From Deltaproteobacteria bacterium (GTDB lineage: Bacteria; Desulfobacterota; GWC2-55-46): DNA of 64,000 nt. Of this stretch, positions 9,571-31,314 are shown piece after piece. Every line of letters begins with the position of its first letter. The first letter of the stretch is position 1. Location: assembly GCA_016182655.1 (NCBI GenBank), contig JACPGB010000012.1, positions 1-64,000 on the forward strand, given 5' to 3'. The position numbers and the translations under genes were made by a program. The notes below the pieces were generated by a model. The model was given only the letters and a program-made list of their open reading frames with translations, did no database searches and was not told the DNA's origin.

Positions 9571-12367
9571 CGTAGGTCCCCCTTATCGCGGGTTTCATCT
9601 TTTCCATAAAAGGCCTGACGAACTCGGGCGGCGATTGTCCCATGCCGAAGAGGTCGGGCGTGCGCGCTTTTGCCTCGAACCCCTTCTCCGAATCGACCGA
9701 CTCGTGGATCCTTATCCGCTTCACCTTACCCGCAACGCCGCCGGACATGTATGAATCGAATACCGCGATGCTGGAGTTCTTGTCGGCGGTGAGCGCGTCG
9801 ACCCCCTGGGCCTCAAGCCGGCTTTTGTATACGAGCGCGTGGCCGCCGTCGCCGTACTGCCAGTTCTTCTTGTACGCGTCTATAGTCTTTGCGTTGCCAG
9901 AGAGGACCGAGTTGTAGATGACGGCCGTAGAGCCGTCCTTGGCCTGCACGCCTATCTGGTTGCCGGTAAGGCGCGTGTTCAAGACAAAGACTTCCGTGCC
10001 TTCGCCGACCGAGATGCCCTTGTCCCCTGAGCCTTCCATGCTACTCCCCAGCACCGCCACATGGCTGGACATGAGGTCGAGCCCGTCGTTGCCGCTTTTT
10101 ATGAACTGAGAGTCTATGACCTGCCCCCGCACATAGTCGAGGTCGAGGGCGTCGGCCTTCGCTCCCGTAAATACGCTCTCTTTTATTGTTACTTCGGAGT
10201 AAACGAGGTGGACCATGTCGTCTACAAGCTTGTTATCCGAAAAGGCGCAGTTTTCGATTTCAACGCCTTTGACCCCGTGGACCGAGAGCATCGCCGAGTG
10301 TTCGACGAGCGCGTGGCGCGCCCCGCTCCCGCCCTTGAACTCGCAGTGGCTCAAAAGCGACCCGTTGGCCCCGCTTCCCGTGAGAATGACCGCGCCCCAC
10401 GGCCCTTTAGCGGCATCCAGCGGCAGGAACCTTACGATTCTCCCCGGCTCTCCCTTTGCCTGGAGCCTGCCTCTGATCACAAGAGAAGCCGAAGGCGCGA
10501 GCCGGACCGTCACCCCCGGCCTTATAACGAGGTCTTCGACTTCCCTGACCCCGTTGATCGTGATATCGGATGAGAAGACCGTTTCCGTCGGCTTCTCTTC
10601 GAGCGGCGCGACATTGAAAGTACCGTCGAGCGGATAGGCGGGGGACGACTCCGCGCGCCTGACTTCCACTGTTTTGCCGTCCGGCAGTATTGCCTTTAAG
10701 GAGAGCAGGTCGCGCGCCTTCGCGCCTTTTATGCCGAATGAGTACGTGGCCGGGCTTATTACGGCGTCCCTTATGATTATCGGGACTCTAAGAGCCGGGG
10801 CCGACATGGCTCGCCTTGCGAATAGCGGCGCGTCGATCCTTACGGTGTCCTTGTCGATGAGCGAAATTGCGCCGGATAAGTCCCTTGAGACGGCCTTCCC
10901 GTCCGAAGTATACGAAAGGCGCGCCGAAAGCGGCCCTTTTATCGAGCTGTAATCGGCCTCCAGCGCCCTTACGGGCGCGAACCCCTCGACAATCACCCAT
11001 ATCTCGCCGGTCTTTTCATCGACCGAGTACGAGGCAACGGGCGGCGTCCCGATGTACGCCTCCCTTACGTCAATGAGGCTCTTTTTCACGAGCCCTTTGA
11101 GTTCGTCTATGTTGGATATGACCTCGGAAGGCGAGAGGACATAGGAAGACTCGAAGTGCAAATTTCTATCGCGCTTGAGCGACGAGAAGAGCGGGGCTGT
11201 GTCATATAGGAGGCCCGCGATATGCTCGGCCCCGCCGTCTTTGAAGAACTCCTCCATCGCGGTATGCTTTTTGAGGAGAAACCGCTGGTCCCTGTGCAAG
11301 GCCTCGAATATCAGGTTGGTTATTATGTCCATCCTGTTTGTCTGCGCCTCTATCAGCGGGACATAGTCCTTGTAATTCCAGCCGAGCGGGTCCCATACTA
11401 TCGGGATGAAACGGCCCATCGACGGGTCGAAGAAGAGCCTCCAGTTGTGCTCCGCGTCGAAGTGAACGGTCCGGGTGAGCGTAATAAAAGCCGCGAACCG
11501 CGCCCACTCGTCCATGTCGAGGAGCCCCGAGAGCGCGTCCATGTCCCCCCTGTATACGGCGGAGCTCAAGCGCACGAGCGATTCATTCCACTCTTGCTCG
11601 TTGTGGTTGTTGATAGCGGCCTTTGACCAGAATCCGGGGTTGAGGAATACCTCGGTCCCGACGATCGGGAATACGTCCGTTCCCACAAGCTCGCCGACGT
11701 AGATGTCGCCCGGCATGCGGTCGTTTCTCCGGAGGAACTGCTCGCCTATCTGCTCGGTCAATATCTCCACCCCCATGTACCTGCCGTTTATATAGACCTC
11801 CACGGGGTTCGACTCCGGCGCCATGAGCCCCATCTTTTTGGCGAGCGAGTACGCGAGGTGGTCGGTTATTATATGAGGGGTCTTGGGGATGATAAGGTTG
11901 AACTCGCGCATCCCGTCATAGAGCCGCTCCTTCTTCGTCTTTATGCGTATCGACTTCTTCCTCTCGGCCCAGTGGTATGAAAAGTCCCCCCTGTACTTCA
12001 TCTTCACCTCGAAGAGCTTGCCGTCGGGGTAGAGGAGCTTGGCCTCCACATACTGCCGCCCTGAGTAGGGGAGGTCCGCGTCCAGCTTCTTAAGCTCTCC
12101 TTCCTGTACGTAGATATTCACCGCCGGAAGGCCCCTGTTATCGCCGAGCGCGTGTGAAACCGACCCAAGGTCGTTAAGGAGTAGCCCGGCACGCATCGAT
12201 CCGATGGATTTGAGCCCCACGTTCATCGTCGCCCGGTAGTCGAGCTTCAGGAGCCTGTACGACTCGGCCGTATCCTTTATCCAGACGAAAAAAAATACCG
12301 CTATCGGGAGCGTGGCTACCCAGCTCCACTTCCAGAGCGCCTTTATTATGCAGGCCGCGCCGCGCAT
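9560..12367 (-). CDS. CotH-like kinase with C-terminal right-handed beta-helix (copy 1)
   Basis: 935 residues: N-terminal signal anchor (about 12-30), CotH-type kinase domain (about 80-420) with KYRGDFSYHW, KSIRIKTKK, the catalytic-like pair HNWRLFFD and VWDPLGW, a beta-rich linker, then a parallel beta-helix (about 640-860) with repeated turns such as NDGLDLMSSHV and GDKGISVGEGTEV. CotH enzymes phosphorylate protein side chains at the cell surface (known in Bacillus spore coats). No spore genes are seen here, so the substrate is unknown. The start overlaps the TPR gene stop by one base. A close paralogue lies at 24680-27478. Confidence 0.85.
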   Translation of the reverse strand: MRGAACIIKALWKWSWVATLPIAVFFFVWIKDTAESYRLLKLDYRATMNVGLKSIGSMRAGLLLNDLGSVSHALGDNRGLPAVNIYVQEGELKKLDADLPYSGRQYVEAKLLYPDGKLFEVKMKYRGDFSYHWAERKKSIRIKTKKERLYDGMREFNLIIPKTPHIITDHLAYSLAKKMGLMAPESNPVEVYINGRYMGVEILTEQIGEQFLRRNDRMPGDIYVGELVGTDVFPIVGTEVFLNPGFWSKAAINNHNEQEWNESLVRLSSAVYRGDMDALSGLLDMDEWARFAAFITLTRTVHFDAEHNWRLFFDPSMGRFIPIVWDPLGWNYKDYVPLIEAQTNRMDIITNLIFEALHRDQRFLLKKHTAMEEFFKDGGAEHIAGLLYDTAPLFSSLKRDRNLHFESSYVLSPSEVISNIDELKGLVKKSLIDVREAYIGTPPVASYSVDEKTGEIWVIVEGFAPVRALEADYSSIKGPLSARLSYTSDGKAVSRDLSGAISLIDKDTVRIDAPLFARRAMSAPALRVPIIIRDAVISPATYSFGIKGAKARDLLSLKAILPDGKTVEVRRAESSPAYPLDGTFNVAPLEEKPTETVFSSDITINGVREVEDLVIRPGVTVRLAPSASLVIRGRLQAKGEPGRIVRFLPLDAAKGPWGAVILTGSGANGSLLSHCEFKGGSGARHALVEHSAMLSVHGVKGVEIENCAFSDNKLVDDMVHLVYSEVTIKESVFTGAKADALDLDYVRGQVIDSQFIKSGNDGLDLMSSHVAVLGSSMEGSGDKGISVGEGTEVFVLNTRLTGNQIGVQAKDGSTAVIYNSVLSGNAKTIDAYKKNWQYGDGGHALVYKSRLEAQGVDALTADKNSSIAVFDSYMSGGVAGKVKRIRIHESVDSEKGFEAKARTPDLFGMGQSPPEFVRPFMEKMKPAIRGTYDGA

Positions 12368-24679: not shown

Positions 24680-27478
24680 ATGACCAAGAGGCTCATAAAA
24701 ACGATATGGAAGTGGAGCTGGGTATTCACCCTGCCGATCACGGCCGCATTTCTCATATGGGCGTTCGACTCATGGCAGTTCTACTCCAACTTTTCGCTCC
24801 GATACGGCGGCACGACTACGGTCGGCCTCTTCGATTCAGGGGAGATAAGCGCCGCATACATTTCGAACGGCCTCAAGAGCTTTATCGCGCCTGACCTGCA
24901 CGCTAAAGTGGAGAGGCTGGAAATGATGCACCTCTATGTAAAAGAGTCCGAGGTAAATAAGCTGAACGCCCGCCTCCCGGGCTCGGGGAGGGAGTATGTG
25001 GAAGCGAGCCTACTCTACCCCGACGGCAAGGTGCAAGGCGTGGAGGTGAGGTACAGGGGTGACTTCCCGTACCACTGGAGCGGAAAAAAGAAATCGCTCC
25101 GCGTCAAGACCCGCAAGGGGCGGTTATACAACGGCATGCGCCAGTTCAACCTCATCGTGCCGAAGACGAGGGACGTCTTCTCCAATTACCTGTCCTACGC
25201 GCTCGCCTCCCGCATGAACCTCATGACGCCCGAGGCCAAGTTCGTCGATTTATACATGAACGGGCGGTACTCGGGCGTCTATCTCTTTGTGGAACAGCTC
25301 GGCGAGCAGTTCCTCCGGAGGAATTCCCGGATGCCCGGAGACCTCTATGCAGGAGAGCTGGTCGGCAGAGACCTCGTCCCTGTCGTCGGCAGGGAGGTCT
25401 TCCAGACACCGGGGTTCTGGACGAAGGCGGCCGTCAATAACCACAACCCGCCGGAATTCAACGAGCCTATGAAGGAGCTTACGAAGGCCGTTTACTCCGA
25501 AGACCCCGAGAGGCTTTTAAGCCTGATAGATATGGATGCGTGGGCGCGCCTTGCCGCGTTCATAACCATCTGCCGCACGACGCACTTCGACATCACCCAC
25601 AACTGGAGGCTTTATTTCGACCCGGCAAAGGGCAGGTTCGAGCCGGTCGTCTGGGACCCGCTCGGGTGGAGCTACGACGCCTTTGTCCCGAACATCGAAA
25701 AGCAGTCGAACACGATGGACATCATATCGAGCTTCGTATTCGAGCGGTTGCATTCTGACCACCGTTTTCTGGCGGCCAAGCATAAGCTTGTCGAAGAGTT
25801 CTTCGCCTCCGGAGGGGCCGAATATCTTACCGGGCTCATGGATGCGACCGGGCCGCTCAAGGCCTCCATCAAGCGCGACCGGAACATCGTCGTCAACATG
25901 TCGCGGTTCTTTTCGCCGCCGATGGTGTTAAAGGAGATGGAGGATTTCAGGCGCTTGACCGTCGCGAGCCTTGAAGAGGTCAAGGCGGCCTATTCGGCGG
26001 AGCCGTCCGCGTCATGGGACATTGAAAAAGGAAAGTTATGGGTGACGGTCGACGGGTTTACGCCTGTAAAATTTTTGGAAGTGGAATTCGCCTCGCCCCA
26101 GCGCGGCGTATCAAAAGCGACTATAGGCTTTCAGAAAGACGGTGCGTCTATTTCAAAGGATATATCGCGGCATGTGACCGTGAACGGGAATGTCGTAAGG
26201 GTCGCCGCGCCTCTTTTTGCAAGGCGGGCAATGACCTTTCCCTGGGCGCCGGACTCATCCGGCATCGTCAAGGACGCGGTAATAGAGCCCGCGAGCTATA
26301 TGATAAGCCTTGCGGGGACAAGAGGGCAGATAATCGGCGTGCGCGCGGGCTACGCAGGCGGACAGGTCGCTGAGCTTGAAAAAGCCGCTGGAATGGAGCA
26401 ATACCCGCTCGACGGGAATTACTCAGTAGTGCCGGTAGAAGAGACTGTAAAGGCGTACGCCTGGTCCGGCGAGGTCGTCATAGACGGGGTCATGCGGATA
26501 GACGGAGACCTGACCATCGCCCCTGGCACGAGGGTAAGCTTTACTCCGAATTCATCGTTAGTAATTCGGGGCAAACTATTCGCCGGGGGCGAGGAGGGCA
26601 GGCTTGTAGTCTTCGGGCCTCTCCGGAAAGGGCAGGAGCCGTGGGGGGCGGTCGTGCTTGATGGACGCGGCGCTAACGGCTCAACGCTCAAGCACTGCGT
26701 CTTCTCCGGAGGTAGCGGCCTGCGGGACAGATTCGTCGAGTACTCGGCCATGCTCTCGATCCATGCCGTAAAGGGTGTGGTCGTGGACAACTGCGTCTTC
26801 TCGGACAACAAGGTCGTAGACGACATGGTGCACGCGGTCTACTCCGGTATGACCATCAGGCGGAGCCTCTTTACCGGGGCCAACCGCGACGGGCTCGATC
26901 TCGATTATACGGACGCTACGATAATGGAATCCCGTTTTACAGGGAGCGGCAACGACGGGCTCGACCTCATGAGTAGCCAGGTCGTTGTCCTCGGCTCCGA
27001 GATGATCGGTTCGGGCGACAAGGGTGTGTCCGTCGGCGAAGGCGCGAAGGTCTTTGTATGGAACACGCGGATAACGGGGAACGAGATAGGCGTGCAGGCA
27101 AAGGATGGCTCGAGCGCGTTCATCTATAACACGGAGCTAACCGGCAACAAGAAGACGATAGACGCGTACAAGAAGAACTGGCAGTACGGAGACGGCGGCC
27201 ATGTCTTCGTCTCCAAGAGCAGTATGAGGGGCGCGGGCGCGGCGCTTACCGCAGACAAGGACTCGTCGCTCAGGGTCTTTGATTCGTTCTTCGAGGGCGA
27301 GACCGGCGGGAAACGCAAAAACATACTTATCCACGAGACGGTCGATACCGAAAGCGCCTTCGAGCGCAGGGCTCGGACAAAGGAGGCCTTTGTCCCTTCA
27401 TTCGAACTGCCCGCCTTCATCGAGCCCTACCTTGAGATGATGGACCCTACGGTAAGGGGGAGGACGGCGGAGAACTGA
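24680..27478 (+). CDS. CotH-like kinase with C-terminal right-handed beta-helix (copy 2)
   Basis: 932 residues, paralogue of the 9560-12367 product over the full length. Signal anchor (about 12-30), CotH-type kinase domain with RYRGDFPYHW, KSLRVKTRK, HNWRLYFD and VWDPLGW as the likely catalytic acidic residues, then a parallel beta-helix (about 640-860) with NDGLDLMSSQV and GDKGVSVGEGAKV turns. Unlike copy 1 there is no VTC or DUF4956 gene behind it: the next feature is a terminator and then a tRNA-Glu fragment marking the island edge. Extracytoplasmic protein kinase by analogy; substrate unknown. Confidence 0.83.
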   Translation: MTKRLIKTIWKWSWVFTLPITAAFLIWAFDSWQFYSNFSLRYGGTTTVGLFDSGEISAAYISNGLKSFIAPDLHAKVERLEMMHLYVKESEVNKLNARLPGSGREYVEASLLYPDGKVQGVEVRYRGDFPYHWSGKKKSLRVKTRKGRLYNGMRQFNLIVPKTRDVFSNYLSYALASRMNLMTPEAKFVDLYMNGRYSGVYLFVEQLGEQFLRRNSRMPGDLYAGELVGRDLVPVVGREVFQTPGFWTKAAVNNHNPPEFNEPMKELTKAVYSEDPERLLSLIDMDAWARLAAFITICRTTHFDITHNWRLYFDPAKGRFEPVVWDPLGWSYDAFVPNIEKQSNTMDIISSFVFERLHSDHRFLAAKHKLVEEFFASGGAEYLTGLMDATGPLKASIKRDRNIVVNMSRFFSPPMVLKEMEDFRRLTVASLEEVKAAYSAEPSASWDIEKGKLWVTVDGFTPVKFLEVEFASPQRGVSKATIGFQKDGASISKDISRHVTVNGNVVRVAAPLFARRAMTFPWAPDSSGIVKDAVIEPASYMISLAGTRGQIIGVRAGYAGGQVAELEKAAGMEQYPLDGNYSVVPVEETVKAYAWSGEVVIDGVMRIDGDLTIAPGTRVSFTPNSSLVIRGKLFAGGEEGRLVVFGPLRKGQEPWGAVVLDGRGANGSTLKHCVFSGGSGLRDRFVEYSAMLSIHAVKGVVVDNCVFSDNKVVDDMVHAVYSGMTIRRSLFTGANRDGLDLDYTDATIMESRFTGSGNDGLDLMSSQVVVLGSEMIGSGDKGVSVGEGAKVFVWNTRITGNEIGVQAKDGSSAFIYNTELTGNKKTIDAYKKNWQYGDGGHVFVSKSSMRGAGAALTADKDSSLRVFDSFFEGETGGKRKNILIHETVDTESAFERRARTKEAFVPSFELPAFIEPYLEMMDPTVRGRTAEN

Positions 27479-27489
27479 GTCGTCAGACG

Positions 27490-27530
27490 AAGAAGCCCTG
27501 AAATCGGAAGATTTCAGGGCTTCTTATTTT
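27490..27530 (+). terminator. Terminator of the second TPR-CotH operon
   Basis: 13-bp stem GAAGCCCTGAAAT / ATTTCAGGGCTTC with a CGGAAG loop followed by TTATTTT. Immediately downstream begins the tRNA-Glu 3'-end copy, so on the minus strand the same hairpin would sit after a tRNA. Confidence 0.85.
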
Positions 27531-27531
27531 C

Positions 27532-27572
27532 TGGCGTCCTACCGGGATTCGAACCCGGGTTTCAGCCTTGAG
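27532..27572 (-). repeat. Outer att copy: 3' fragment of tRNA-Glu
   Basis: 41 bases matching the tRNA-Glu gene from its CCA end through the T-arm to CTCAAGG of the anticodon loop, with one deleted base in the acceptor stem and one substitution in the variable region. Beyond 27572 the match stops, so this is a truncated gene copy and not a functional tRNA. It marks the left end of the island. A second tRNA-like T-arm may follow at 27589-27640 (CAGGCTCGAACCTATG on the plus strand), uncertain. Confidence 0.75.
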
Positions 27573-27848: not shown

Positions 27849-28538
27849 ATGCTCATAAATCCTGAAATTAGCAATGTAAGTATAGTTTTGGTAGGGAATT
27901 TCAATCCTATTATTTTTAGGCCAGAATGGTTTGAGAAACATGATATACTTAGCAAAGATGATACTGAAAAAACTAAAGTCAAAATTGTTCACCCAGAGAT
28001 ATCTGACTTTCAAAACGAATGGCTAAATCTTCAGGTACAGACTAGTAAATTTACGGTTAGCACATCAGAACCGCCATATGTAAAATTATTTGATTTTGTT
28101 GTTAAAACTTTCAAGGAGTACTTAAGCCATACTCCAATCTCTAAGTTAGGTATTAATAGAGAAGTTCATTTCAGTGCAAATGATTTAGCCAATCGAGATC
28201 GAATTGGTAAAATACTTGCTCCACGCGAGCCTTGGGGAGAATGGGGAAAACTTATTGATGCTGGCGAAGGCGAAGAGCATGGTGGAATGGCTAACTTAAC
28301 TATGCAGATAAAAAAACTAGATGATCGAGAGAAGGGAATGATTAATATTACAGTACAGCCCTCATCTAAGGCGTATGCTGGGATATTGGTTAGTGTCAAT
28401 GATCATTTTGAGCTTTCAGACACTACCACTACTGGATATCTTGATAGTAATAAGATTATGGATTTGCTTGTAAAAAAGTTTGATACATCGTTGGAAAATT
28501 CTGAAAAAATAATAAATCAAATTATGGGACTTGTATGA
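27849..28538 (+). CDS. Unknown protein, first gene of the AT-rich metallo-beta-lactamase operon
   Basis: 229 residues, no signal peptide. Layout by eye: a beta-strand start (SIVLVGNFNPIIFRP), an aromatic-rich middle (YVKLFDFVVKTFKEYLSH), then PISKLGINREVHFS, a charged glycine-rich loop, and a C-terminal helix after a TTTTGYLDSNKIM turn. The order of short strand, VGxF opening, GIN-x-x-HF strand and final long helix reminds me of TIGR04255-type proteins, but this is only an impression. No catalytic motif. Overlaps the next gene by 4 bases (ATGA). AT-rich codon use unlike its neighbours indicates transfer. The ribosome binding site is poor; the preceding 250 bases are very AT-rich with TATAAA-like boxes. 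Confidence 0.72.
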   Translation: MLINPEISNVSIVLVGNFNPIIFRPEWFEKHDILSKDDTEKTKVKIVHPEISDFQNEWLNLQVQTSKFTVSTSEPPYVKLFDFVVKTFKEYLSHTPISKLGINREVHFSANDLANRDRIGKILAPREPWGEWGKLIDAGEGEEHGGMANLTMQIKKLDDREKGMINITVQPSSKAYAGILVSVNDHFELSDTTTTGYLDSNKIMDLLVKKFDTSLENSEKIINQIMGLV

Positions 28539-29110
28539 GCATTTATGTGCAGCAGGCTGAAACCACTTATTTGGACCTCCGTCCTGTAGAGTCATCTACA
28601 ACAAATATGTCAGCTACAAGAGGAGATGTGCTTAAAAAAATGTATCTTACAAATAAGCCTGTTGTTGAACAAGGTAGTGCAGAAAAAATTGATCAAATTG
28701 GGTTGCGAAGTGAAAGTAAACCAGAAACTGATCGCGTAATCTCTCTCCCTAGTTTTAAAGCGGTTACTGAGCAGGCGATTACCCCTATTGCGTTGCTCCA
28801 AGAATGGGAAGGTTATGTTGAATGTATTAATGAAAATGAATTTACTGCATCCTTAGTAGATATTACTAAAAAAAAGAATATAGCAGAGGAGGAAGCCGAT
28901 TTTCCGATTGAAGATTTAAATCAGGATGACAAGAGGCTTTTGAAACCAGGTGCAGTCTTTAGATGGCTTATCGGTTATCGCTCGATAGGTGGTACTAAAG
29001 AGCGGTTTTCAAAAATCGTATTCAGACGAATGCCCCAATGGACTGCGAGAGATTTTGAGGCAGCCCGTACAAAGGCAAAATATATTTCGCGCACGATTGT
29101 ATGGGAATAA
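28535..29110 (+). CDS. Unknown protein, second gene of the AT-rich operon
   Basis: 191 residues in two parts. Residues 1-85 look low in structure (polar, MSATRGDVLKKM). Residues about 86-191 look like a small beta-barrel domain: LLQEWEGYVECINENEFTAS, then DFPIEDLNQDDKRLLKPGA, FRWLIGYR, and FSKIVFRRMPQW, ending in a helix. This second part could bind a partner or nucleic acid, but no named family is recognised. It overlaps both neighbours (4 bases upstream, 10 bases downstream), so all three proteins are translationally coupled and probably act together. Confidence 0.72.
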   Translation: MSIYVQQAETTYLDLRPVESSTTNMSATRGDVLKKMYLTNKPVVEQGSAEKIDQIGLRSESKPETDRVISLPSFKAVTEQAITPIALLQEWEGYVECINENEFTASLVDITKKKNIAEEEADFPIEDLNQDDKRLLKPGAVFRWLIGYRSIGGTKERFSKIVFRRMPQWTARDFEAARTKAKYISRTIVWE

Positions 29111-30228
29111 GCACTGTTAAACCAGTTCCTCCCCAAGCAAATCAAATTGAAATTACGCTCATTGGCCCAGGTTATGGAGAATCAACACTAGTACATATAG
29201 GTAACGATAAATGGGTAATTATAGACTCCTGTATTGATTCTGCAACATCAGAACCCGCCGCAATCTCTTACCTTCGGTCTATCGGAGTTAACCCGGAGAT
29301 ATCAGTAGTTCTTATCATTGCCACACATTGGCATGATGATCATGTGCGTGGCATAAGTAAGGTTCTGGAATCATGTCCAAATGCAATTTTTTGTGCCTCA
29401 AGTGTGCTTAGCAAGGAAGAGTTCTTGAATTATGTCCTTCCATTTGATGAATACAATCCAATAGCTGCTGGTTCAGGAATTAAAGAATTGAAGGAAATGT
29501 TTCGTATTCTATGTAATAAGAAGAGACATAAAATAGGTGCAATAATGAATAGGAGAATATACTATATCCCTGCAAGTGATACCGAGCCAGAATGCAGTGT
29601 TTGGACTCTTTCTCCGTCGGACAAACAAGTTGATCTTTTTCTTAATTCCTTAGCAGAGCTTATTCCAGAAGTCAAAACTACGAAATACCGTGTGGTTGAA
29701 CCTAGTGATATATCAAATCATCTAAGTATTGTAACTTGGATAGAGGTTGGAGATTTTGCAATCCTTCTTGGAGGTGACAAGAGGGAAACTAAAGACTATG
29801 ATACCGGTTGGTCAGTTATTATAAAATCTAAAGAGAGACCACAACGCAGGGCTTGTATTTATAAAGTGTCTCATCATGGCTCAAGCAATGCTCATAATGA
29901 TGGTATTTGGACTGAGATGCTGCTTTCTCAACCTTATGCATTATTAACTACATATAATCGAGGAAGAAGAAAGTTGCCGACTTCTGCAGATGTCTCAAGG
30001 ATAGAAACTTTTACAGGGAATGGTTATTCAACCTCAAGGTTATCAACTGTCAAATCGAAAACTCGTCGTTCACCTGCTGTCGAAAAAACTATAAAAGGTA
30101 AAATAAGAATTCGCAGTATTCAACCGCGAACTGGCATGATTAGGTTAAGACAAACAATAAATGAATTGGGGTCTTGGTCCGTTGAACTTTCAGATTCTGC
30201 TTGCAAATTGAAGGAAGTACATTCATAA
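29101..30228 (+). CDS. Metallo-beta-lactamase-fold hydrolase, third gene of the AT-rich operon
   Basis: 375 residues. Metal-binding motifs of the metallo-beta-lactamase fold are complete: HWHDDH (H76, H78, D80, H81), D226 in LLGGDKRE, and H258/H259 in KVSHHGSSN. The SHHGSSN and LLGGD motifs are of the ComEC/Rec2 C-terminal type, which in related enzymes acts as a phosphodiesterase or nuclease on nucleic acids or nucleotides. No signal peptide or membrane helix, so it is a free-standing cytosolic enzyme. The basic tail (about 310-345, many K/R) could contact nucleic acid. It begins inside the end of the previous gene. Substrate unknown. Confidence 0.85.
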   Translation: MGISTVKPVPPQANQIEITLIGPGYGESTLVHIGNDKWVIIDSCIDSATSEPAAISYLRSIGVNPEISVVLIIATHWHDDHVRGISKVLESCPNAIFCASSVLSKEEFLNYVLPFDEYNPIAAGSGIKELKEMFRILCNKKRHKIGAIMNRRIYYIPASDTEPECSVWTLSPSDKQVDLFLNSLAELIPEVKTTKYRVVEPSDISNHLSIVTWIEVGDFAILLGGDKRETKDYDTGWSVIIKSKERPQRRACIYKVSHHGSSNAHNDGIWTEMLLSQPYALLTTYNRGRRKLPTSADVSRIETFTGNGYSTSRLSTVKSKTRRSPAVEKTIKGKIRIRSIQPRTGMIRLRQTINELGSWSVELSDSACKLKEVHS

Positions 30229-30400
30229 AAAAAAGAACCTAATTGCTTTATGTAAAAGTACCTCCTTTCTTAAGAAAGGCGTATTGTGGGTCTTGTTTTC
30301 AATTCCTTTAGGGATGGAGTAATCAGAAAAGTACCATGTTTTTCGTCCATCTTATCCTACTTTATACCATATTGTCTTAGACGACAGAGCCAACAAAAAA

Positions 30401-30436
30401 GCCCTGAAACCATATGGTTTCAGGGCTTTGTATTTT
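30401..30436. terminator. Hairpin next to the middle att copy
   Basis: Perfect palindrome GCCCTGAAACC-AT-ATGGTTTCAGGGC region (30401-30426) followed by TTTGTATTTT, flanked by A6. The arrangement (hairpin, TATTTTCTGG, tRNA 3' end) repeats that at 27490-27540. Upstream, 30229-30400 holds only a 16-bp palindrome CCTTTCTTAAGAAAGG (30264-30279) and no gene. Confidence 0.75.
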
Positions 30437-30437
30437 C

Positions 30438-30471
30438 TGGCGGTCCTACCGGGATTCGAACCCGGGTTTTT
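30438..30471 (-). repeat. Middle att copy: 3' fragment of tRNA-Glu
   Basis: 34 bases identical to the 3' end of the intact tRNA-Glu gene (CCA end through T-arm). The match ends just before the anticodon arm. It separates the AT-rich operon from the higBA segment. Confidence 0.8.
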
Positions 30472-30503
30472 AGAGCTCGTCTCGCTGAAAGCTTTCAAAG
30501 CCC

Positions 30504-30782
30504 TTAAGCCGCCTTTAGCTGTTTGACCTTCAGCTTTTTTTTCCGCATCTCCCAAAGGTCATACTGCATCTGCTGATTCAACCAGCTCTCGGGCGTAGTG
30601 TTGAAGGCTATGGAAAGTCTTACAGCCATTTCAGGGCTTATCCCTGCGCGGCCATTGATAAGCTCGGAAAGGGTCTTACGGCTTACGCCAAGGGCCTTTG
30701 CCGTCTCGGTTATGGAGAGCCCCAAAGGCTCGATGCAGAGTTTCTTTATGACTTCCCCCGGATGGGGAGGGTTGTGCATCAT
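30504..30782 (-). CDS. higA: HigA-type antitoxin
   Basis: 92 residues, XRE-family helix-turn-helix ([20 protein letters not shown]) preceded by the HPGEVI signature of the HigA addiction-module group. It neutralises the HigB toxin encoded immediately upstream (13-base gap) and should repress the operon by binding the promoter palindrome. Toxin-first order is typical of higBA. Confidence 0.92.
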
Positions 30783-30795
30783 GGCTTATCTCCTT

Positions 30796-31074
30796 TCAAT
30801 GGTAGTCCAGATAATCGACCACATGGGCGTCGTGCCCCTCGAATTTAAATATTAGCCTCCAATTGCCGCTTACCTCTACGGACCAGAAGCCCTTTAGTTC
30901 CCCTGTCAGCTTATGTAGCCGCAGTCCCGGAAGGTTCATGTCCTCAGCCTCATAGGCGGCGTCAAGCCTCGCAAGTATCAGCCGCAACCTGTCCGCGTGC
31001 TTCGCCTGGATTCCAACCTTGCTGCCGGTAGAGTAAAAGGCCTTCAGTCCCTTATGGCGAAAGCTCTTTATCAT
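30796..31074 (-). CDS. higB: HigB-type mRNA interferase toxin (RelE superfamily)
   Basis: 92 residues, RelE/ParE-like fold: MIKSFRHKGLKAFY start, central LPGLRLHKLTGELKGFWSV and C-terminal GNWRLIFKFEGHDAHVVDYLDYH with the conserved Arg. HigB toxins cut mRNA at the ribosome. The start codon matches the family start exactly and sits at the inferred transcription start, so the mRNA may be leaderless. Confidence 0.92.
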   Translation of the reverse strand: MIKSFRHKGLKAFYSTGSKVGIQAKHADRLRLILARLDAAYEAEDMNLPGLRLHKLTGELKGFWSVEVSGNWRLIFKFEGHDAHVVDYLDYH

Positions 31075-31238: not shown

Positions 31239-31314
31239 TGGCGGTCCTACCGGGATTCGAACCCGGGTTTTAGCCTTGAGAGGGCCACGTCCTAGGCCTC
31301 TAGACGATAGGACC
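31239..31314 (-). tRNA. tRNA-Glu (anticodon CTC)
   Basis: 76 bases including encoded CCA. Acceptor stem GGTCCTA/TAGGACC, T-arm CCGGG-TTCGAAT-CCCGG, anticodon loop CTCTCAA giving CTC (Glu, codon GAG). On the minus strand; its 3' end is the attachment site of the island at 27532-31238. A hairpin at 31205-31227 follows it and is its likely terminator. The remaining parts of 31110-31389 hold no gene. Confidence 0.93.

Follow-up and report, generated by a model that had tools for sequence, protein, structure and literature searches.

Three overlapping genes, here called A, B and C, in a 64,000-nucleotide stretch of a deltaproteobacterial genome (the window) form a real conserved unit, found in the same order in many phyla. 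The trio is best read as a mobile immune (anti-phage or anti-element) or conflict cassette, a reading which we consider probable from the sequences and their surroundings.

The A-B-C locus and its tRNA-Glu site

The lead gene, A (27849–28538, + strand), encodes a protein of 229 aa with a predicted two-fold repeated alpha/beta fold. It is followed on the same strand by B (28535–29110, 191 aa) and by C (29101–30228, 375 aa), which encodes a soluble metallo-beta-lactamase (MBL) hydrolase resembling ComEC, Avs1a and LmuA. The ORF calls gave overlaps of 4 bases (ATGA) between A and B and of 10 bases between B and C, matching the arrangement described in the first-pass annotation, which had been made from the sequence alone. 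The AT-richness of the trio relative to its neighbors was also borne out, with a GC content of 37–39% over 28–30 kb vs. about 53–60% across most of the window. The genome (2.9 Mb) contains the window as its contig C18. Two CotH-like proteins are also encoded in the window (24680–27478 and 9575–12349); they are 53% identical and have right-handed beta-helix-like C-termini.

The trio had been placed inside a tRNA-Glu attachment array with higBA adjoining it, and both placements held. The 3′ end of tRNA-Glu is duplicated at 27536–27572 and 30443–30479, and each duplicate forms, with a terminator hairpin, one of two 86-bp, att-like direct repeats that bracket A-B-C (outer repeat, 27487–27572; inner repeat, 30393–30479, which closes the trio). 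The outer repeat shares 97% identity with the intact tRNA copy over 37 nt and 82% with 30393–30442 over 50 nt. The intact tRNA-Glu(ctc) (31239–31314, − strand) is the likely integration target. Between it and the inner repeat sits a higBA-like toxin-antitoxin pair (30504–30782 and 30796–31074, − strand), identified by eye.

None of the 96 nearest relatives sampled carried the trio, and four congeneric genomes have the same tRNA-Glu locus without it; the trio in the window was therefore most likely acquired recently, as a mobile unit. In one of these four, the sister genome G003, a tRNA-Glu-end duplication lies about 3.7 kb from the tRNA (L169, 3748–3807 and 7501–7576) and its cargo, a response-regulator/GAF-type gene, is unlike the trio. 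Because this genome has its own duplication with different cargo, we regard tRNA-Glu as a repeated insertion site.

Conservation and linkage of the three genes

A one-genome-per-species scan with A yielded 66 A loci in many phyla, and the ordered A-B-C trio was complete in 58 of them. Of the eight exceptions, four were truncated at the edges of contigs, one (L049) lacks C, two (L072 and L083) lack both B and C, and L082 is not a gene. The A-B pair of L049 (1964–4052), which has no MBL gene, adjoins a methylase fragment and a FIST-like gene, and it possibly serves another effector or is a decayed copy. Trios were found in Desulfobacterota, Bacillota, Bacteroidota and Actinomycetota, as well as in one archaeal (Thermoplasmata) MAG. 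As the same gene order recurs in dozens of unrelated genomes, the arrangement is beyond chance.

When A, B and C were each searched separately in a phylum sample, they were found in the identical 7 of 395 genomes. Every strong C match in this sample co-occurred with A and B, and none was solo or with other partners; the next-best C matches were ComEC proteins of about 800 aa (E ~1e-11). Tree distances were correlated between all three proteins (A-C r = 0.80, A-B 0.67, B-C 0.69; permutation maximum 0.24). A count of how often homologues occur as a triplet had been proposed as a check, and these adjacency and co-occurrence figures provide it. Neither of the two patterns named as evidence against the proposal, homologues rarely adjacent elsewhere or a triplet found mainly in core metabolic contexts, was seen. 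The suggestion of an undescribed conserved system is supported as regards the first two families.

C has a complete metallo-beta-lactamase site

The named active-site residues and motifs are all present in C (HWHDDH at 76–81, D226, H258, SHHGSSN and LLGGD). Across 51 C homologues H76, D80, H81, D226 and H258 were invariant, whilst H78 was kept in 49, confirming the claim of a complete MBL site. The size and solubility of C also agree with the earlier statement that it has no membrane part. The closest named relatives are LmuA, RTasMBL, Avs1a and the ComEC MBL domain; PADLOC matches among the 51 members were to LmuA (47/51) and RTasMBL (45/51), and the Avs1a model was also matched. A search with RTasMBL returned 2 genomes only, too few for a tree.

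Against solved structures, C aligned with the ComEC MBL domain (E 6e-7). The spacing between H81 and D226 is 133–156 residues in C vs. 94–101 in ComEC, an insertion of about 45 residues. C is likely a nucleic-acid-type MBL hydrolase and the effector of the trio. This role, which had been proposed at the outset, gains support from its relatives LmuA, RTasMBL and Avs1a, which are effectors, and from divergent cassettes in which the third gene is swapped (see below).

A and B belong to families without a catalogued match

Neither A nor B matched Pfam, NCBIfam (June 2026) or PADLOC, in keeping with the first-pass annotation, which had found no recognisable function for them, and none of 62 A proteins matched NCBIfam or PADLOC. 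Matches to PHROGs were weak and without assigned function. Neither protein was found to contain a protease, an NTPase or a known sensor domain. Within the literature surveyed, they look like uncatalogued families.

A carries the motifs SIVLxGxFNPxIFxPxW, GIN and NDH, and its AlphaFold2 model (pLDDT 93.5) consists of two successive strand-helices-strands-helix repeats. Comparison with a viral library gave one clear relative together with weak TBP/TFIID-like matches (TM about 0.3). Since these matches are consistent with the two repeats of the model, we took them as a hint that A may be a TBP-like saddle. AdoMetDC-like matches in the PDB were weak (E 2e-5, TM 0.3), and that homology was not accepted.

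The AlphaFold2 model of B begins with a variable tail of about 80 low-confidence residues, followed by a five-strand barrel (85–163) and a C-terminal helix, so that the model agrees with the barrel-like domain reported at the end of B, with the helix after it. Foldseek gave no significant match of this model in the PDB. Among the weak matches OB folds were prominent (ssDNA/RNA binders, e.g., RPA and Stn1/Ten1), and B is possibly an OB-like, nucleic-acid-binding adaptor. Outside the trio one solo case of the B barrel was seen, a 133-aa protein on an Acetobacter pasteurianus plasmid (L003, 7923–8324), with genes for a DNA cytosine methyltransferase and a HipA toxin in its vicinity.

Divergent cassettes keep the lead gene and change the effector

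A deeper A profile found six further genomes with a divergent A′, homologous to A by profile comparison (99.5%, E 1e-22). Each A′ leads a three-gene cassette without C. At L145 (5994–7622), next to a type III restriction pair, A′ is followed by an unassigned middle protein and then by a HEPN-domain protein (PF05168, E 1e-7). Another A′ cassette, which encodes a ‘QGDIF..TQSCDL’ protein, has an integrase on one side and an Eco57I-type methylase on the other. Because A′ cassettes carry other third genes, one of them HEPN, the lead gene is constant whilst the effector varies, a mark of immune and conflict systems.

The third- and middle-gene families of the A′ cassettes also trail proteins of TIGR04255 (E 2e-10; E 2e-17), an uncharacterised and ‘sporadically distributed’ family with the same position and partner genes as A′. 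These sequence matches suggest that TIGR04255, an orphan family, leads similar cassettes. At L156 (1486–3041) and L158 (216–1765), TIGR04255 genes are followed by A′-type third- or middle-gene families, and at L150 (2–2262) one is followed, a short way downstream, by what looks by eye like a type III modification methylase gene. A itself gave a weak colinear profile match to TIGR04255 (53%, E 1e-4). The NCBIfam cut-off of the TIGR04255 model (30 bits) was reached by 0/62 A proteins, and the model had no match in the genome of the window. No TIGR04255 gene accompanied an MBL gene in the loci examined, and the partner families shared by TIGR04255 and A′ were not seen for MBL-linked A.

The trio is carried by phages, plasmids and islands

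The earliest A/B match was on an Adhaeribacter (Bacteroidota) plasmid, and a Pantoea plasmid was then found via C; both carry the trio, and on the Pantoea plasmid its genes are consecutive and are flanked by two tyrosine recombinases. Viral contigs queried with C alone gave two dozen strong phage or prophage loci, and all C-positive viral loci uncut at a contig edge also encode A and B. Replication-nickase genes were among the neighbors on these contigs, as were portal, large terminase, integrase and antirepressor genes, and on this basis we regard the trio as real prophage or phage cargo. Viral scans with two-sequence alignments gave no match, but deeper alignments did find trio loci; a tblastn search of annotated phages with A and C as queries gave no match. 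Antiviral hotspots are known from prophages (PMC9122126).

Ten tRNA genes were found near trios in genomes, and 7 of them were no more than 1 kb away (p = 1e-4); this 1-kb zone accounts for 14% of the flanks. The GC content of the trio was below that of its own flanks in 53/54 loci. The island setting had been proposed from the tRNA-Glu repeats in the window, and carriage by phages, prophages and plasmids elsewhere now adds to it. In a Clostridia locus (L046, 6909–12746), two tyrosine integrases accompany the trio and a tRNA-Pro lies 308 bp downstream; it is likely an integrated element. Many trio copies are chromosomal with no recognisable element genes nearby, and chromosomal copies distant from phage genes are common.

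At individual loci the nearest neighbors included type I or III restriction, DUF1156/DUF499-type, HmaC/PbeA-type and Abi genes, some of them identified by eye. A PADLOC neighbor tally gave no clean defence enrichment against a small control set that included one control region with a CRISPR-Cas locus. No recurrent extra gene was seen beside the trio by eye, nor any link to competence or repair genes. In Scalindua/Brocadiaceae (planctomycete) loci L081 (1979–9161) and L080 (255–4079), a gene for a type I restriction subunit precedes a trio whose B is divergent.

Comparison with known systems

C falls in the same MBL branch as the gated MBL nuclease-protease modules described in PMC12799240 (Avs1a, HamM, the Lamassu MBL, RTasMBL of DRT and CanC of Canu). 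Like these nucleases it has ComEC-type motifs and an enlarged region from HxHxDH to the second Asp, and its gene stands in an operon with putative controlling proteins. In HamM, Avs1a and CanC the active site is, or is predicted to be, closed off by insertions of this kind until protease cleavage, and an enzyme of this type degrades DNA once freed (PMC12799240). The trio, unlike the gated modules, has no trypsin or caspase protease and no STAND, helicase, SMC or RT partner; its partners are two uncatalogued families, always A and B. No protease family was recognised in A or B of the window, nor in comparisons of 62 A members with PADLOC and NCBIfam. With no recognisable protease, A and B must therefore restrain or activate C in another way, or C is ungated.

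Lamassu has LmuB (SMC-like) and LmuC as partners and AVAST type 1 has a STAND ATPase and a trypsin gene beside Avs1a, whereas A and B match no PADLOC model; C scored 23.5 bits against the Avs1a model (cut-off 420). The MBL domain of ComEC/Rec2 provides the closest solved structures to C and has motifs in common with it, but C has no membrane channel, a larger insertion, a different C-terminal part and obligate A and B partners. It scored 24 bits against the ComEC/Rec2 model (cut-off 190), and genomic ComECs formed a separate score group. Because it departs from each in a defining feature, the trio was not filed as Avs1, Hachiman, Lamassu, Canu, ComEC or TIGR04255. It resembles the systems of prophage and satellite defence hotspots (PMC9122126) in being a compact accessory cassette beside the packaging genes of prophage contigs; it differs from them in that its genes lie outside the catalogued systems searched.

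Function of the trio

The immune or conflict reading draws on what C is related to, on the swapping of effectors, on carriage by phages and plasmids and on the trio's sporadic spread, and also on tRNA adjacency and low GC. A (two-repeat, possibly saddle-like) and B (OB-like, with its flexible tail) would form a recognition and restraint part that keeps the C metallohydrolase inactive. Infection would lead A and B to release or license C, which would then cut DNA and halt the phage, probably at a cost to the cell, as an abortive outcome. Several points count against this reading: A and B show no recognised protease, NTPase or sensor domain, the neighbor tally gave no clean defence enrichment, the substrate of C could be nucleotides or RNA and not DNA, and prophages may also carry toxins, morons or fitness genes.

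The trio could instead act as a toxin-antitoxin-like addiction or stabilisation module, in which the toxin C is held by A and B and islands, plasmids and prophages are maintained. Its presence on plasmids, prophages and tRNA islands, the adjoining higBA in the window and third genes that can be swapped, including for HEPN, would all fit. However, three genes, a well-folded conserved lead and a 375-aa enzyme are atypical of type II systems, and many copies are on chromosomes where no element genes were recognised. As immune systems show effector swapping just as typically, the two readings overlap; we consider addiction unlikely.

A role in processing or repair, with C as a ComEC-like nuclease acting on DNA that enters the cell or is damaged (during plasmid entry or phage DNA processing) and B as its OB-type ssDNA-binding partner, to the benefit of the carrying element, is less probable again. 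The structural alignment of C with ComEC, the OB folds among weak matches of B and phage carriage agree with it. Against it stand the sporadic distribution (7/395 genomes), the absence of any competence or repair gene link among the loci seen, the lack of a membrane part in C and the replacement of C by HEPN or other proteins in sister cassettes.

One phage nuclease that counters CBASS or Pycsar reportedly has an MBL fold. That the molecule hydrolysed by C is a nucleotide or a signalling compound, as with anti-CBASS MBL enzymes, so that the phage-borne trio counters host signalling, is highly improbable: many copies are on phage contigs and phage nucleases are able to break down CBASS and Pycsar cyclic nucleotides (PMC9117128), but the nearest sequence relatives of C are ComEC and the LmuA/RTasMBL/Avs1a nucleases, and copies remote from phage genes are common on chromosomes.

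Within the immune reading, a wider and more tentative proposal, to which we give slightly less than an even chance, is a new modular class of immunity. Its conserved two-repeat lead group (A, A′ and TIGR04255), possibly with a TBP-like nucleic-acid saddle, would sense invasion and, jointly with a middle protein that varies, activate interchangeable effectors (MBL nuclease, HEPN and others), using no protease, NTPase or nucleotide signal.

If the immune reading is true, the trio would be a widespread three-gene immune system of Bacteria, an archaeon and many prophages, with unnamed sensor and adaptor families and a ComEC-like MBL nuclease controlled without a recognisable protease. Shared partners would place TIGR04255 in this modular scheme as well, and many uncharacterised trios would gain a testable role.
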